A stretch of DNA of 64,000 nucleotides from Marinomonas aquiplantarum (lineage in GTDB: Bacteria; Pseudomonadota; Gammaproteobacteria; Pseudomonadales; Marinomonadaceae), in the NCBI RefSeq assembly GCF_003314975.1, contig NZ_QNRF01000004.1, positions 248,001 through 312,000 of the forward strand, read 5' to 3'. Each line of letters begins with the position of its first letter. Position 1 is the first letter of the stretch. Made by a program: the position numbers and the translations under genes. The notes under the pieces are model-generated. The model saw nothing but the letters and a program-made list of their open reading frames with translations. It searched no databases and was not told the DNA's origin. This document shows, one piece after another, positions 42,980 through 48,409 of this stretch.

Positions 42980-43630
42980 ATGTCATCGACGATAAAAAAA
43001 GTACTCACTTCCATCGATTCTTTCTTCGGATTCCTTGCCTCTGTTTTAATGCGAGTTCTTTTATACGTGTTTTCATTTATTGTGTGTGTGTTGACTGTGT
43101 TGGATGTTCTAACCACACCTTTTTATGATGAATCAAGTGACGCTATATTCAGTTTTAGCCTCAATGAGCTAGATAATTTGGAAGCAGTGGTTATTCTTAC
43201 TTTTATTTTTGTGACGGTGCGTTTCTTTAGGCGCAGTAAAGCAGAAGGTGTGACGCTTTGGCCATGTTTAAAATCTTATGTGTTTGTGTCTGCTGTCTCT
43301 GTGGCGTTTTCATCGATTATTTATTTACTTGTGCTTATGCTGGTGATGTTTGATCGCGGTGAAATTAGCCTTTCTGTTTTTGATGAGCACTCTGATTTAC
43401 AGTATTTCTCCAACGCAATTTTCACTATGTTAGCCTTGTATGCTTTTGCCCCTTTGCCAAAGTTGGGTTGGTTGCAAAAAATGAGCGGTAAGCAAGAAGA
43501 GGTTGTGTCTGAACCAGATCAATCAAATGACTTTACTCACTCTGAAAAAGGTTCTGTGGATTCAAATATGAACGAAACAGACTCTTCACATTCAAGCTCT
43601 TTTCATTTAGATAAGACAGATAACAAATAA
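42980..43630 (+). CDS. Hypothetical membrane protein (first gene of an unknown three-gene operon)
   Basis: 216 residues, RBS AAAGGA. Three to four membrane helices are visible: about 14-45 (FLASVLMRVLLYVFSFIVCV), 68-85, 102-130 (VFVSAVSVAFSSIIYLLVLM) and 145-160. A cytoplasmic Ser/Asp/Glu-rich tail of about 50 residues follows. No family is recognised. It lies between hsdS and the 43646 gene with a 15-base gap to the latter, so it is one operon in the middle of a defence island. Confidence 0.7.
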   Translation: MSSTIKKVLTSIDSFFGFLASVLMRVLLYVFSFIVCVLTVLDVLTTPFYDESSDAIFSFSLNELDNLEAVVILTFIFVTVRFFRRSKAEGVTLWPCLKSYVFVSAVSVAFSSIIYLLVLMLVMFDRGEISLSVFDEHSDLQYFSNAIFTMLALYAFAPLPKLGWLQKMSGKQEEVVSEPDQSNDFTHSEKGSVDSNMNETDSSHSSSFHLDKTDNK

Positions 43631-43645
43631 GAAAGGGATTTTAAA

Positions 43646-44023
43646 ATGACTTTAAATAATCGTGTTGTATTCGTGTTGTTGTCTTTGGCGTTAAGTAGCC
43701 ATGCCTTTTCCCGTAGTGACATTCCTTTAAAGAAAGGCGCTGATTTTTTAGTGAGTGCTTGCCAAGAAGTCGTTGATATTTATGATGCGCATGGTGAAGC
43801 GAAGTTTCTAGCATCTCAGCGTACGTCTTTGGCAGAAGGTATTCGTACGGGTTATTGTCTTGGCGTTATTGTGCAATACCGAGAAAGTGCTGGTTATTGT
43901 CGTTATTCAAAAAATAATGTACTAGAAATGGCTCAAGCGATTGCTCGTACCAATCTGACTGAGTCTCAGTTAAAACGAACGGATACTTCTGACATTTTAG
44001 AAGAAGCGTATTGTGGACTCTAG
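43646..44023 (+). CDS. Small secreted protein, Rap1a/Tai-like (tentative)
   Basis: 125 residues with RBS AAAGGG. A signal peptide is visible (NRVVFVLLSLALSSHAFS, about 5-22). The mature part has four Cys (VSACQE, GYCLGV, GYCRYS and EAYCGL at the end). The layout, with a Cys followed by a helix and a (G)YCxG block, loosely resembles the Rap1a/Tai periplasmic family, which includes immunity proteins of type VI effectors. The match is weak. It is translated in one operon with the genes on both sides. Confidence 0.65.
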   Translation: MTLNNRVVFVLLSLALSSHAFSRSDIPLKKGADFLVSACQEVVDIYDAHGEAKFLASQRTSLAEGIRTGYCLGVIVQYRESAGYCRYSKNNVLEMAQAIARTNLTESQLKRTDTSDILEEAYCGL

Positions 44024-44681
44024 ATTTTACAGTATTCCTGAGGCGCTGAGACTGTTATTTGGTTCAGACATGCTGAGAGAGGTTCCCTCGTTACGAACCA
44101 AGGCAAATTCTTTTTTGCGCAACGGCCTTTTGACTTTTAAAGAGGATTTAATTGTTCATAAGAAGAGCAAGTTTATCCCTGAAACAGAGCTGGATACCTT
44201 GTTTAACGCTATGTTGTTGAGCTCTATTTTTACCGATTCAAAGGAAGTGAAAGCGATTTTCTGTGAGCCTGAAAAACGCGCTCAATGTGCCGAGGTCGTG
44301 AAAGCCATGTTCACTCGCCAGCATTCGCTGGCGGGGATCGCTCTTTCTAGTAGCAAGACGACGACTTTTGTTACTTGTCTCGAAGGGGATTTTGACCTTA
44401 GGGCGAACCGTTTACCGAATCCGTTTAAAACCTTGCCTCAAGCTACGCTTGGCAGTAACGGCTCTTTGCTTCGTGTCTTGTTGGCTCAAGCGGCGGTGCT
44501 TGAGCCAATGGACAGTATTCTAATGAAATACTTGGATGGTGAATGGCTTGAGGCTCAAGCTTTGATCAGTCAATTGGATATAAATTTAGCGGGTGTTGCC
44601 GAGCTAAAGGCGGAGATAGACAAGAAAATCCATGAAGCGGAAGAAGTGGATGATTTGTTAGATTTTATGCGTGGTCTTTAA
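44013..44681 (+). CDS. Hypothetical protein (third gene of the unknown operon)
   Basis: 222 residues from GTG 44013, overlapping the previous gene by 11 bases, so likely coupled. It is mostly helical, with no membrane segments. The opening SIPEALRLLFGSDMLREVPS could be a small DNA- or peptide-binding helix bundle. A beta-containing middle (AGIALSSSKTTTFVTCLEGD) and an acidic tail (EAEEVDDLLDFMRGL) follow. No family is recognised. Confidence 0.6.
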   Translation: MDSRFYSIPEALRLLFGSDMLREVPSLRTKANSFLRNGLLTFKEDLIVHKKSKFIPETELDTLFNAMLLSSIFTDSKEVKAIFCEPEKRAQCAEVVKAMFTRQHSLAGIALSSSKTTTFVTCLEGDFDLRANRLPNPFKTLPQATLGSNGSLLRVLLAQAAVLEPMDSILMKYLDGEWLEAQALISQLDINLAGVAELKAEIDKKIHEAEEVDDLLDFMRGL

Positions 44682-44722
44682 GGCCTCGCATAAAAAATAA
44701 AAAATAGTTAGAAATCGCTTTG

Positions 44723-44737
44723 TTGTGCAGTGCACAA
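44723..44737. promoter_or_regulatory. Palindromic site A upstream of the GRDP-like gene
   Basis: TTGTGCA-G-TGCACAA, a perfect 15-base palindrome, 55 bases before ATG 44793. The same 15 bases occur at 45467-45481 before the viperin gene. It is a likely operator for one regulator controlling both genes. Confidence 0.75.
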
Positions 44738-44792
44738 ATTCAACCTTGGTTTTGTTGGCAACATCCCGTTGACAACGAAACGGAGGTTCAAT

Positions 44793-45353
44793 ATGAAAAC
44801 ATTCACTTTAGCTACACCTGCTACTCAAAAGCAATTTGGGCAGCAAGCAATCACATTGGCGTCAGATTTAAACGCAGCTGATGGTATTAATAAATCAGTG
44901 CATGCGATTAATTTTCAGAAGCTAAAATGGAAACTTACCAAGTCAGCCGAGGCCACTTGGAGCGATGAAATGTGTGACTTTGCAGAGTTAGAGTATAAGA
45001 AGTTTCTAACACTAAAGCTTCTCTATCCAAAAGTCTCTTTTGTTCCAAGTAAGATCGTCGATAAGTTTTGGCATGAGCATATATTAGATACAAAATCTTA
45101 TGCCGAAGACTGCATGATGCTATTTGGTTCGTTTCTGCATCATTATCCGTATTTTGGCATATATGGCGATGACGATCAGCGAGCTCTTCAAGCTGCTTTT
45201 GATGAGACGATTGAGCTGTATGAATCCCACTTTGGCTCGTACCCAACTGATGCATTATTTAGCCAACAGAGTGTTGAGGCAGCACGCTGTAGTGATCATG
45301 CATGTCATGTTCCATCATCTTGCGCATGTCGTGTACCAGGTGCGTGTAAATAA
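44793..45353 (+). CDS. GRDP-like (DUF1399-type) protein with cysteine-rich tail
   Basis: 186 residues from ATG 44793 (GGAGG 7 bases upstream). The core (about 60-150) has the signature of glycine-rich-domain-protein-like families: KFWHEHILDTKSYAEDC (Trp93, His94, His96) then GSFLHHYPYFGIYG (His116, His117). The His pairs could bind a metal. The last 23 residues hold five Cys (166, 171, 177, 179, 185), like a metal-binding or modifiable tail. It has its own terminator, yet it shares with the viperin gene an identical palindrome, the CCCGTTGACAA and GGAGGTTCAA blocks and the first codons ATGAAAACA. A functional link is inferred; the role is unknown. Confidence 0.75.
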   Translation: MKTFTLATPATQKQFGQQAITLASDLNAADGINKSVHAINFQKLKWKLTKSAEATWSDEMCDFAELEYKKFLTLKLLYPKVSFVPSKIVDKFWHEHILDTKSYAEDCMMLFGSFLHHYPYFGIYGDDDQRALQAAFDETIELYESHFGSYPTDALFSQQSVEAARCSDHACHVPSSCACRVPGACK

Positions 45354-45374
45354 GCTCTAAATCATATTACTTGA

Positions 45375-45410
45375 GACAATATCAGCTGATGACGGCTGAT
45401 ATTGTCTTTT
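45375..45410 (+). terminator. Terminator after the GRDP-like gene
   Basis: Perfect 12-bp stem GACAATATCAGC (45375-45386) / GCTGATATTGTC (45395-45406), 8-base loop, TTTT. It means the viperin gene must be transcribed from its own promoter, consistent with its own copy of the palindrome. Confidence 0.85.
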
Positions 45411-45466
45411 ATTAATGGCGACTGGCAGTCGCTTCCAAGAAAAATAATCATGAAATAATTACTATG

Positions 45467-45481
45467 TTGTGCAGTGCACAA
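45467..45481. promoter_or_regulatory. Palindromic site B upstream of the viperin gene
   Basis: A second exact copy of TTGTGCAGTGCACAA, 40 bases before ATG 45522. Downstream, both leaders carry CCGTT...AACGG (a small 5-bp dyad) immediately before GGAGGTTCAA and the start codon, so the whole leader is duplicated with 15 bases deleted here. Confidence 0.75.
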
Positions 45482-45521
45482 GTTGAATCTAGATCCCGTT
45501 GACAAAAAACGGAGGTTCAAC

Positions 45522-46490
45522 ATGAAAACATCTATTTCGAAAACGCTTCATTCAAACTTACGAGTTTCAAGTGCACAGGATTTAAACACACAAACGGCAA
45601 AGACCGAACTGGTTATCAATTTTCACATGACAGAAAGCTGCAACTATCAGTGCAGCTACTGCTATGCCACTTGGGATGACTTAGAAGCCAAAAATGAGCT
45701 TCATCGTTTGTCAGGGCAAGTGGAATCCCTTCTACAAAATCTTGCAGACTATTTCCTACGTCCTAATCCATTGCAGTCTGAAATGGGTTATCAGAACGTA
45801 CGCCTTAATTTTGCTGGCGGTGAGCCTATGTTGCTCGGGCAACGTTTTTTGGATGCTGTTAAGTTTGCGAATCAGTTAGGTTTTCGCACGTCTTTGATTA
45901 CCAATGGACATTATCTTACTGAGGATATTTTGGATGAATTAGCACCCTCTTTGGATGTGTTAGGGATGAGTTACGATACCGCGGATCATGCTTTGGCACA
46001 GGGTATTGGCCGTGTTGATCGCAAAAAACGTTGGATTGATGCTGAACAATTGGTGCAGATGTGCGCCCGTTATCGGTCGTTGAACCCGACGGGCGTTTTA
46101 AAGCTAAACACAGTGGTAAATGCTGTGAACTGCAATGACAGTTTGTTTGGTCTGATGAGTGAAATTAAGCCTAACAAATGGAAGTTGTTACGTGTTTTGC
46201 CTGTGCATGATCACCAGTTAACGATTACTCAGGCTGAGTATCAAGCTTATGTTCAGCGACATTCTGCGCTATCTAGCATCATTGTAGAAGAAGACAATGA
46301 TGCCATGACGCATACGTATTTGATGATCAATCCAGAAGGGCGTTTTTACCAAAATTCCGATGCAGGTTGCGGCTACATCGTCAGTAATTCGATTTTGACT
46401 GCGGGTGTTGAAAAAGCACTGAGTCAGGTTCCTTTTAACATCTCTGGGTTTAAGCAGCGTTACCAGCTTATTCCTTCGGTGATGGTTTGA
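45522..46490 (+). CDS. Prokaryotic viperin-family radical SAM enzyme
   Basis: 322 residues from ATG 45522 (GGAGG 6 bases upstream). The radical SAM cluster motif is CNYQCSYC (Cys40, Cys44, Cys47), preceded by INFHMTES as in bacterial viperins. NFAGGEP, SYDTADH and KLNTVVNAVN follow. The C-terminal region (WKLLRVLPV, YLMINPEGRFYQN, GVEKALSQVPF, FKQRY) parallels human viperin's. Viperins turn CTP, UTP or GTP into 3'-deoxy-3',4'-didehydro ribonucleotides that stop phage polymerases. No (d)NMP kinase, a common pVip partner, is next to it; a RelE-like gene follows 10 bases later. Confidence 0.9.
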   Translation: MKTSISKTLHSNLRVSSAQDLNTQTAKTELVINFHMTESCNYQCSYCYATWDDLEAKNELHRLSGQVESLLQNLADYFLRPNPLQSEMGYQNVRLNFAGGEPMLLGQRFLDAVKFANQLGFRTSLITNGHYLTEDILDELAPSLDVLGMSYDTADHALAQGIGRVDRKKRWIDAEQLVQMCARYRSLNPTGVLKLNTVVNAVNCNDSLFGLMSEIKPNKWKLLRVLPVHDHQLTITQAEYQAYVQRHSALSSIIVEEDNDAMTHTYLMINPEGRFYQNSDAGCGYIVSNSILTAGVEKALSQVPFNISGFKQRYQLIPSVMV

Positions 46491-46500
46491 GGAGGAATTT

Positions 46501-46749
46501 ATGATGAAGCAGATTATAAATGGACTCGAGTCAATTCCTTTTTCGTTGCGAGAAAAGGCACGTCAAGAAGTCTCAGATTTACTTAAATTAGGAAAGCGAT
46601 CCAGAAGGTGGAAAAAGCTATCAAACAAGAAAGACTGGATAAGTTGCAAGTTGAATAAGTGTTATCGATTGGTTGTCAGGCTTTCGAGGGTTTCTACTGG
46701 ACCGTATATCTGTATGAACCATTCGGACTACGATAAGCGCTTTAGGTAA
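46501..46749 (+). CDS. RelE/ParE-fold-like small protein co-transcribed with viperin
   Basis: 82 residues starting 10 bases after the viperin stop with a strong GAGGAGG RBS. The pattern WKKLSNKKDWISCKLNKCYR (about 37-56), then VVRL and ending YICMNHSDYDKRFR, is that of RelE/ParE-superfamily toxins (KLKG-x-R-x-RxNxxYRL, then a NHDxYDK end). It lacks an obvious antitoxin partner. The operon with viperin is seen; a functional link is inferred. Confidence 0.65.
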   Translation: MMKQIINGLESIPFSLREKARQEVSDLLKLGKRSRRWKKLSNKKDWISCKLNKCYRLVVRLSRVSTGPYICMNHSDYDKRFR

Positions 46750-46759
46750 CGTTAGAAAG

Positions 46760-47065
46760 TTAGTGGGAGTAAATAACCACACCAGATTCTCGAATTTGTT
46801 TTAACAGGGCTTGGTTGGTGAGATTTTTCTCATCCACCAAGTTGATCATGTAGGGGCTGTTTAAGTCGTCTAGTTCAATACGAAGAGAGGGGATGATGTC
46901 TTCTTTTGGTGTTGAAATAGAAAGGTCTATGTCTGAGCCGTTACGAAAATTGCCTGTGGCGCGGGAGCCGAACAGAGTCACTTTTTCAATGTCTGGATAC
47001 TTTGAAAAGGTCTCAGACATTTTTTGTAACAAGTTTGTTGGAATGCCGAATTTGGAAAGGGTCAT
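46760..47065 (-). CDS. mntA: MntA-like nucleotidyltransferase antitoxin
   Basis: 101 residues of the minimal nucleotidyltransferase family: GSRATG (33-38) and GSDIDL (43-48) with catalytic Asp45 and Asp47. In HepT-MntA systems the enzyme AMPylates a tyrosine of HepT and neutralises it. It overlaps the hepT stop by 4 bases. The gene is convergent with the viperin operon, ending 10 bases from the RelE-like gene. Confidence 0.9.
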   Translation of the reverse strand: MTLSKFGIPTNLLQKMSETFSKYPDIEKVTLFGSRATGNFRNGSDIDLSISTPKEDIIPSLRIELDDLNSPYMINLVDEKNLTNQALLKQIRESGVVIYSH

Positions 47066-47502
47066 AGGGTAGACAATTTTTCTTTCAGTTGAATGAAGCA
47101 GGCGTTGTAACTTTCCCGTACTTTTGAATATTCCGTTCCAAGAATACTCGCATCGTAGGCGTGTACCGTTTTGTTACGACTTTCGATCATGTCCATCCAT
47201 GTTTGACCGTCTTGGATGAGACCTAGGTTAAACGCCAGCCTTGTCGCGGTTCTTGATCCTGTAATGTTTTGATGACCTTCGTATTCAAGGTAGTCTTTTA
47301 AAACTTTCCAAGCCAGTTCGTGAGTGAATTCGAATCTCTGTAGAACGCCTTCCTTTATGATGTTTGGCGATTTTTCGTCGTAGGCTTCTACGGCTTCGTT
47401 TAGTTGCAGTAAGACTTTTTTATAGTTTTGAAACCGTTGTCTCCAACGTTCTGCTAGCTGACTATCTTCGGTTATATCTTTGTCGTCTCTTTGGCCTAGC
47501 AC
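47062..47502 (-). CDS. hepT: HepT-like HEPN RNase toxin
   Basis: 146 residues from a GTG start, HI0074-type substrate-binding/HEPN fold (FEFTHELAWKVLKDYLEYEG, about 57-76). The RX4HXY motif is intact as Arg109, His114, Tyr116 in SRNKTVHAY, the RNase site plus the tyrosine that MntA AMPylates. Toxin first and antitoxin second is the usual order for this type VII system. Neither gene is disrupted. Confidence 0.9.
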   Translation of the reverse strand: MLGQRDDKDITEDSQLAERWRQRFQNYKKVLLQLNEAVEAYDEKSPNIIKEGVLQRFEFTHELAWKVLKDYLEYEGHQNITGSRTATRLAFNLGLIQDGQTWMDMIESRNKTVHAYDASILGTEYSKVRESYNACFIQLKEKLSTL

Positions 47503-47554
47503 GTTTTAGCATTATGTCACAGATTACGTTGAGTAAAAGAGCGGGGCGTTCAGC

Positions 47555-48409
47555 CTATTTCCTAAAATACTCCGCCAGCGCTTGCCATTGTTGTTCTGAT
47601 TGAGCGGCGAGCATTTCGCCATCTAGCATGCTTGGACTGTATTCTTCGCCGCTGAGTAGACGGCACACACCACCCGTTTCCGTGAAGATCAGCACCCCAG
47701 CTGCGTGGTCCCAAGGCATCATTTTATAGGTTAGGCTAAATTGAAAGTGCCCGAGTGCCATCTGTCGGTAAGCCGGACAAGAGGGCAGGTTGTTGATGCG
47801 AGCGAAGCGTGTGGCCTTGATCGCAAAGTCTTTTTTTCTGTCACCGACATAGGAATGAATCGACATGATGCCAGCATGTTGTTCCAGCGGTGTGTCTGCT
47901 TGAATATGTAGTGGGACAGGGGCGGTTTCAGGAATCGCGTAGTTACCTCGCTCTGCCTGAGTCGTCGCTTGATAGTAAGCGCCTTGTCCTTTATTAGCAT
48001 AAATCCAATCATCGTTTACTGGGTCATAAAGCACACCAAAACGAGTAGTGCCTTTGACGACGACCGCTAAAATGATGCCGAAGTCTGAAAGTCCGTGAGC
48101 GAAGTTCCAAGTACCATCAATGGGATCAATGATGACACAAGTATCAGCACGGCTAATTTTGTCCGTGGTTGATGGGTCTTCAGCGACAGCTTCTTCACCG
48201 ACAATGGCCCAGTCAGGAAAACAGTGTTGAATTTCTTTGGTAATAAAGTCTTCACTGGCTTGATCGGCAATGGTGACCAAATCACTGCGACTGGTTTTTT
48301 CTTTGATATCTTGACTGTCGAGTTGGCGAAAGTGTGGCATAACAATCTCTTGGCCAGTACGACGTAAAATATTGATTAACGTGTCTTGTGTGTTTTGGTC
48401 GAGATTCAT
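47555..48409 (-). CDS. Inositol monophosphatase-family protein
   Basis: 284 residues with the IMPase metal motifs: IVGEEAV (about 74-80) and IIDPIDGTWNFAHG (about 93-106), and a WDHAAGVLIFTETGG motif near 230-245. These enzymes dephosphorylate inositol phosphate, 3'-phosphoadenosine phosphates or sugar phosphates with Mg2+. Start at ATG 48409. It is divergent from the transketolase operon, whose operators lie between the two, so it may be in the same regulon. Confidence 0.88.
   Translation of the reverse strand: MNLDQNTQDTLINILRRTGQEIVMPHFRQLDSQDIKEKTSRSDLVTIADQASEDFITKEIQHCFPDWAIVGEEAVAEDPSTTDKISRADTCVIIDPIDGTWNFAHGLSDFGIILAVVVKGTTRFGVLYDPVNDDWIYANKGQGAYYQATTQAERGNYAIPETAPVPLHIQADTPLEQHAGIMSIHSYVGDRKKDFAIKATRFARINNLPSCPAYRQMALGHFQFSLTYKMMPWDHAAGVLIFTETGGVCRLLSGEEYSPSMLDGEMLAAQSEQQWQALAEYFRK

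Follow-up and report, generated by a model that had tools for sequence, protein, structure and literature searches.

A prokaryotic viperin of Marinomonas aquiplantarum in a probable regulated slot with exchangeable cargo genes

Which of the genes around a bacterial viperin belong with it, and what might control its expression, are questions raised by a locus of Marinomonas aquiplantarum on contig NZ_QNRF01000004.1 (assembly GCF_003314975.1). The stretch of DNA analyzed, hereafter the window, comprises 64,000 nucleotides (positions 248,001 to 312,000 of the contig, forward strand), and coordinates given below are window positions. We know of no description of how bacterial viperins are switched on, and no title on the subject stood among the matches listed from the open PubMed Central (PMC) literature. 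A sequence-only reading of the window had grouped the viperin, an upstream GRDP-like protein with a cysteine-rich tail, and a downstream RelE-like protein as one candidate defense module. That interpretation was partly supported, but it was incomplete: the constant partners of the viperin are three upstream genes, here called MEM, U125, and U222, while the slot that follows them holds a GRDP, a viperin, both, or kinase and radical-SAM genes. With a probability of roughly 55%, the locus is a six-gene phage-defense cassette whose genes divide into a control part and a cargo part, in which the regulator core and a conserved leader would keep the effectors off until triggered. That the cassette is a regulated slot appears likely.

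The features of the locus are listed below; open reading frames (ORFs) were taken from a simple ORF script, and starts and spacing were read directly from the sequence.

42980-43630, plus strand: MEM, conserved core gene 1; predicted multi-pass membrane protein of 216 aa (ORF, hydrophobic segments, and homologues)
43646-44023, plus strand: U125, small protein with an N-terminus that is signal-peptide-like by eye; Cys39, Cys71, and Cys123 invariant
44013-44681, plus strand: U222, candidate regulator of 222 aa, overlapping U125; winged-helix-like N-terminal part and helical C-terminal part
44723-44795, plus strand: leader copy 1, palindrome (44723-44737) and Shine-Dalgarno hairpin, extending to the GRDP start codon; z -4.48; not used to build the covariance model
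44793-45353, plus strand: GRDP-like protein of 186 aa, ATG at 44793; helical domain and conserved Cys/His tail
45373-45408, plus strand: terminator-like stem-loop 3' of the GRDP gene, 16-pair stem
45467-45524, plus strand: leader copy 2, palindrome (45467-45481) and Shine-Dalgarno hairpin, ending at the viperin start codon; z -4.33
45522-46490, plus strand: prokaryotic viperin of 322 aa by profile scores and motifs, ATG at 45522
46501-46749, plus strand: ParE/RelE-like protein of 82 aa, PF24732 match, with no leader of its own

The core genes (42980-44681) are tightly packed, and MEM starts 58 bp 3' of hsdS, which belongs to the type I restriction-modification operon (hsdR-hsdM-hsdS) immediately upstream of the cassette. 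The terminator-like stem sits between the GRDP and viperin units; because terminator-like sites in the region were about as frequent as in shuffles (4 observed versus 3.7 expected), only its stem length supports it. A promoter scan of the region gave a number of sites not above chance.

The radical-SAM gene encodes a true prokaryotic viperin (pVip), a full member of that group in score, length, and motif, as the sequence-only reading had recognized. It scored 329.7 bits against NCBIfam NF038283 (cut-off 180) and 312.8 bits against the PADLOC pVip model 'not associated with kinases', and Cys40, Cys44, and Cys47 and the GGE of NFAGGEP (G99-G100-E101) were invariant in all 15 aligned rows. A longer viperin ORF is possible, from a GTG start at 45474. 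Known pVip sets are described with nucleotide kinases, as PADLOC model names also have it, and the earlier reading had named kinases as the usual alternative partner. No nucleotide kinase adjoins the viperin among its neighboring genes in the window, but a sister Marinomonas locus (L140; loci and genomes are cited by our own L and G numbers) has an M51B-like kinase 3' of viperin-ParE (208 bits), and a nucleotide kinase adjoins the viperin in Pseudoalteromonas. A viperin search of viral contigs kept 80 loci, of which the best three alone were viperin-like by coverage; these were used solely as controls in the leader search.

Conservation of the neighborhood was strongest upstream. Among 48 Marinomonas genomes, viperin was found in 6, U222 in 7, and GRDP in 4. 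Neighborhood searches with tblastn placed U222 5' and the ParE-like gene 3' of the viperin in all six viperin loci and GRDP between U222 and viperin in two of them, and when wider loci were considered MEM, U125, and U222 were all present in all six. The overlap of U222 and viperin expected by chance was 0.88 (P = 6e-7, with genomes treated as independent). The seventh U222 locus (G010) contained a GRDP in place of the viperin. Marinomonas cargo was made up of viperin-ParE in G012, G025, G028, and G033, GRDP-viperin-ParE in G000 and G003, and GRDP only in G010. Three of the four Marinomonas GRDPs were tailed and adjoined U222; the fourth (G035) was a relative at 39%, and neither a core gene nor a viperin was detected in the 12 kb around it.

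When 84,980 genomes were scanned with a GRDP alignment, the best 80 of 112 loci were retained; 42 of these (L041-L082) matched through the tail, and the rest were more distant relatives with other tails. None of the 42 tailed-GRDP loci had a viperin within up to 8 kb on each side, a set that leaves out the window's genome and G003 (both with GRDP and viperin) and may omit near relatives; viperin was present on other contigs in two of the 42 genomes. U222 was found upstream in 34 of the 42. With GRDP beside two of six Marinomonas viperins and viperin at none of the 42 loci, co-occurrence counts gave no fixed partner set, the three-gene module proposed earlier does not hold, and GRDP was rejected as a regular viperin partner. 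Of 369 genomes searched at class level, 5 had a viperin and 20 had GRDP relatives (the window's own genome counted); besides that genome G093 alone had both, on different contigs and with a different GRDP tail, and it stands outside the counts above.

The same core was found with varied cargo in samples drawn from two larger families. In the GTDB family of Pseudoalteromonas G419, which we take to be the Alteromonadaceae, 345 genomes included 9 with U222, 11 with viperin, and 3 with both (P = 0.002); U222 and viperin were adjacent in two of these three loci and separated by a kinase gene in one. Of the nine U222 genomes, three had GRDP as cargo and three had viperin (G555, there with a kinase, G677, and G746); the other three had neither, one of them carrying a different radical-SAM gene some 850 bp 3'. 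In the family of Pseudomonas G428, presumably the Pseudomonadaceae, 11 of 378 genomes contained U222, followed by tailed GRDP in six, untailed or degenerate GRDP in three (L281, L282, and L284), and no recognized GRDP in two. About 850 bp beyond the core-ParE genes of G493 (L243:4943-6905, minus strand) are genes for an AAA-domain protein and for a radical-SAM protein that is weakly similar to viperin (36 bits).

Core genes were also found on plasmids. Two Pseudoalteromonas plasmids (L131 and L132) encode U125-U222-viperin-DUF4145, with a kinase between U222 and viperin in L131, and no core gene was seen on three further viperin plasmids that were inspected (L133-L135). The Pseudoalteromonas form of U222 was found on three Pseudoalteromonas plasmids, and the record of plasmid match H26 carries a Pseudoalteromonas U222; the window U222 had no match on plasmids. 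In a 56-row tree of U222, viperin loci were found in the Pseudoalteromonas clade, L244/L245, and Marinomonas, and at least three label changes were forced by supported branches; because support for grouping L244/L245 with Marinomonas is weak (90/60), there may have been two or three acquisitions. The ORF script missed the GRDP in L050, L053, L061, and L078, so that the tree labels these as 'none' despite a tailed GRDP, and the true labels are GRDP 40, viperin 9, both 2, and none 5. L081 (M. communis) and L141 (G010) represent one locus, with identical U222.

A third kind of cargo was a radical-SAM and kinase pair. In L052, L074, and L284, a 438-aa protein and a kinase are encoded between the leader and ParE-GRDP. 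The L052 pair, the only one scanned, consists of a B12 radical-SAM protein similar to PADLOC PDC-M51A (540 bits) and a dTMP-kinase-like protein similar to M51B (239 bits), which puts this candidate two-gene system into the slot of the other cargos, preceded by their leader; gene order is identical in L074 and L284, whose pairs look similar. The kinase type is the one that follows viperin-ParE in L140, and no PDC-M51 was found among the window's eight nearest genes. Besides the hsd genes of the window, defense-type neighbors were seen in two other loci, MzaB and MzaC 3' of the GRDP in L062 and AbiEi/AbiEii 5' of the core in L245; all these neighbors were chosen for testing rather than sampled.

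The leader is common to these cargos. It consists of a 15-base palindrome (P1), a hairpin that pairs the GGAG Shine-Dalgarno sequence (P2), and the start codon. The repeat before GRDP and viperin that the sequence-only reading had noticed is exact: TTGTGCAGTGCACAA at 44723 and 45467 are the sole two exact copies in the window, and with up to one mismatch it occurs in the same two places only in the 3.77 Mb genome. The letters of P1 vary by lineage, being TTGTGCAnTGCACAA in Marinomonas, TTGTGGAATCCACAA in Pseudomonas, TTTGTGCGCAGCACAAA in Colwellia, and TTAGTGCAnTGCACTAA in L244/L245. A palindrome with arms of at least 6 was found no more than 75 bp 3' of U222 in 43 of 53 non-redundant loci, a count that takes in several closely related Marinomonas loci and one palindrome (L243) that is not P1, compared to a mean of 4.5 (maximum 9) in shuffled sequences and 4.3 (maximum 10) in random windows.

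Covariation was assessed in 35 leaders from a sequence-only alignment. Standard pairs made up 85.7% of pair cells, compared to 35-49% in slid controls, and two-sided changes were found in 43 cells, compared to 4-23; neither the 7 pairs with a two-sided change nor the 18 pair types exceeded the slid controls, and RNAalifold alone retained P1 only. Because P2 was named by hand from the sequences before counting, its pairing share is partly by construction, and its two-sided changes are less affected. A covariance model of 55 positions built from the 35 aligned leaders found 54 of the 56 loci searched, missing L048 (without U222) and L280 (with U222), and recognized both window copies (2.3e-12 at 45467, a training row, and 2.6e-6 at 44723, a non-training sequence). 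Of the 54 loci found, 34 gave training rows and 20 did not, although among the latter L059 and L141 duplicate a training leader and several others closely resemble one. In all, the leader was present in 55 of 56 U222 loci. It was compared to Rfam over window positions 44000-48000, where five matches were all far below the gathering score and none was at the leader, and in L057, L131, and L244, where a tRNA was the sole match and none fell at a leader; a known Rfam element was therefore rejected. Searches with one Pseudomonas-type leader found no match on plasmids, and one Pseudomonas-type pattern gave two matches on viral contigs, both rejected as lying in coding sequence unrelated to the cassette.

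The leader is doubled in four of these loci. In the window and L136, one copy precedes GRDP and the other viperin; in L131 and L247, the copies precede the kinase and viperin, the start codon of the second leader there opening a short ORF that overlaps the viperin start. The earlier argument from the repeat to common control gained from this, the leader being conserved, covarying, and doubled again in another lineage. The doubling also bears on whether the viperin stands alone in a defense island behind the restriction-modification operon, its neighbors being passengers and the repeated leader a recombination scar of GRDP insertion. Such an arrangement would fit the position of hsdRMS immediately upstream and the many sampled viperins without the core (8 of 11 in the G419 family), and the two window copies may be alike enough to have been a recombination substrate. 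It is nevertheless improbable: viperin has the core beside it in L244/L245, in the Pseudoalteromonas clade, and at each of the six Marinomonas loci, the same core precedes tailed GRDP in 34 of 42 loci from which viperin is absent, and the leader covaries and recurs doubled in L131 and L247. The linkage and covariation counts already speak against this explanation.

If the leader is a control element, it could act as DNA, as RNA, or both. In each of six leaders folded, P1 formed a 6-pair stem with a 3-base loop and the Shine-Dalgarno sequence was inside a stem (one base free in one leader), with z from -4.3 to -6.9. The distance from P1 to the start codon was 53-60 nt in most of 50 distinct leaders and 72-75 nt in the rest, two of 52 rows having been cut at an inner GTG. 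In 20 viperin or GRDP loci without U222 (23 upstream regions), the best palindrome was never of the GTG[CG]...[CG]CAC kind. Among 45 control sources, in which no U222 was seen (all but L016-L018 and L145-L147 having been checked for it), there were four weak leader matches. Three of them, at the start of GRDP in L065 and of viperin in L262 (E 0.37) and L265 (E 0.007; both values for 575 kb), were P2-like hairpins only. P2-like hairpins without P1 precede the viperin in L262, L263, and L265, which lack U222. P1 thus accompanies U222, whereas P2-like hairpins may occur more widely.

These data are relevant to the possibility that the leader works purely after transcription, with P1 and P2 as RNA hairpins and P2 opened by temperature, the state of the ribosome, a small RNA, or a protein that binds RNA, for which the ParE/RelE-fold protein may be a candidate; U222 would then have another role, and its coincidence with P1 would reflect common descent. 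The folding of the six leaders, the narrow spacing from P1 to the start codon, and the P2-like hairpins of the U222-less viperin loci all agree with such control. We consider it unlikely as the whole explanation, since P1-type palindromes occur with U222 and in none of the 20 loci without it, the P2-like matches in U222-less loci are weak, and U222 has no recognized RNA-binding domain but, in its model, a winged-helix-like N-terminal part. Whether U222 acts through P1 as DNA we judge to be evenly balanced.

The properties of the core proteins suggest an envelope-to-DNA signaling line. MEM has several hydrophobic segments, and its homologues are encoded 5' of U125-U222 in Marinomonas and Pseudomonas-type loci; U125 has no segment over the threshold used for MEM. 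Neither MEM nor U222 reached the threshold of any Pfam, NCBIfam, or PADLOC family, and none of 25 U125 members matched a Pfam family at E ≤ 0.001 (best chance match 0.011). The U222 model (pLDDT 81) has a winged-helix-like end and a helical part, and its closest solved structures, all weak matches, were TPR-like helices and MerR-type regulators. Its 85 N-terminal residues resemble the MerR-type regulators CvkR (7xn2) and SoxR (2zhh) at 2.6-2.7 Å over 70-73 residues with a low score; it differs from them in having no Pfam match and a C-terminal helical part unlike theirs.

In the regulated cassette, MEM, U125, and U222 would form the control part and the cargo slot would lie directly 3' of U222, with the leader before the first cargo gene and in some loci before a second. 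The membrane protein and the small exported protein would sense envelope disturbance at infection, a U222 dimer would bind P1 through its winged-helix-like end to control transcription, and P2 would keep translation low until the leader opens. The viperin would then produce chain-terminating nucleotides, and the GRDP-like and ParE-like proteins would be separate effectors or auxiliaries. We infer U125 export, envelope sensing, U222 binding, and repression, as well as all antiviral activity of the cassette genes.

The GRDP-like protein was assigned partly as the sequence-only reading had proposed. Its five tail cysteines were confirmed, and its AlphaFold2 model (pLDDT 79, low confidence in the tail region) matched a Harvfovirus GRDP-like protein (E 4.5e-5), in keeping with PF07173, a family that includes plant AtGRDPs and giant-virus proteins. 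The PF07173 part of the assignment did not stand by score: the protein reached 15.4 bits, under the cut-off of 22.7, and it has a distinct Cys/His tail. Homologues among the matches listed (120 of 558) were assigned to the newer PF27765, which the local family library did not report for the window protein, and each of these 120 had at least five cysteines within the last 35 residues. The tail is near-invariant, with Arg-Cys, His, Cys-His, Cys, Cys-Arg, and Cys in 36 of 36 aligned rows. No match to the fold was found in the PDB at E 0.001, and viral contigs contained four distant GRDP relatives. The ends of distant GRDP relatives (L034-L038 and L083-L119) contain other Cys motifs, namely CxPQRCP, YCA repeats, and CGG runs, which suggests that each subfamily has a tail of its own kind.

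The GRDP-like protein, with a short and highly conserved Cys/His tail modeled at low confidence and a radical-SAM enzyme as neighbor, might also be a peptide precursor whose tail the viperin-like enzyme modifies. This is very improbable: no viperin was found within up to 8 kb at any of the 42 tailed-GRDP loci, the enzyme matches as a viperin equivalog and is far below the cut-offs of peptide-maturase models, and the tail is alike with and without a nearby radical-SAM gene (L052 versus L066). The tail was rejected as a viperin substrate on these three grounds. The same leader precedes viperin, the PADLOC candidate pair, and GRDP, which nominates GRDP as a defense effector by shared control and not by mere proximity. 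At E 0.01, PADLOC gave no defense-gene match for MEM, U125, U222, or GRDP in a scan of the window's eight nearest genes, nor for U222 and GRDP of L055. The odds that GRDP is an anti-phage effector appear about equal.

The ParE/RelE-like gene begins 10 bases 3' of the viperin stop, as had been read from the sequence, and its product scored 40.9 bits against PF24732 ParE_like (cut-off 24.4). In the window it is 3' of the viperin, and in many other loci it is between U222 and GRDP; clustering placed it in 25 of the 42 tailed-GRDP loci, and the L041 member was just under the PF24732 cut-off. A RelE neighbor of viperin is already known: section 10 of Gerdes 2024 (mBio, PMC10865869) reports relE adjoining pVip genes. 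The sets covered there have RelE or HicA neighbors, and that section does not mention the upstream core, the leader, or GRDP, by which the window locus differs. The partner set that the earlier reading could not name is in part published. Among the matches listed from the openly available PMC literature on viperin neighborhoods, viperin regulation, and GRDP, there was no description of the core, the leader, or GRDP as defense. Nor did MEM, U125, U222, or the leader have any above-threshold match in the Pfam, NCBIfam, PADLOC, and Rfam searches made. The small gene 3' of viperin in L244 and L245 is HicA-like by eye, and an NCBIfam scan of the L245 member gave no family.

It may be, though we put this somewhat below even odds, that an undescribed Gram-negative signaling chassis (membrane protein, exported sensor, winged-helix-type regulator, and two-hairpin operator/riboregulator leader) drives interchangeable anti-phage effectors, including viperin and a new class, the Cys-tailed GRDP. 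If so, bacteria would have a counterpart to inducible viperin expression. With three candidate regulators and a compact leader in one operon, viperin switching is directly testable, and the 55-position covariance model is a search key for further effectors.

Several other genes were observed near these loci. The genes downstream of the ParE-like gene are on the opposite strand, where a nucleotidyltransferase and an HI0074-type substrate-binding protein (46760-47502, minus strand) are convergent with it, 10 bp apart, and may be an MNT/HEPN-like toxin-antitoxin pair; no search aimed at antitoxins was made. The sister loci L010 and L011 keep nucleotidyltransferase fragments. A gene of about 900-950 aa is divergent from viperin in L241, L259, L260, L262, L263, and L265, which lack U222, and in the two tested (L241 and L259) it matched PADLOC 'Ankyrin' PDLC02908 (1507 and 790 bits). 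L261 (5695-7208) and L264, also without U222, have another unnamed gene pair (309 and 192-196 aa) 5' of ParE-viperin, perhaps an alternative control part. A zinc-finger-like protein of about 117 aa ending in HLTK is encoded 3' of viperin in L262, L263, L264, and L265 and 3' of tailed GRDP in L056, L065, L070, L075, L076, and L079, and is thus a partner common to both.

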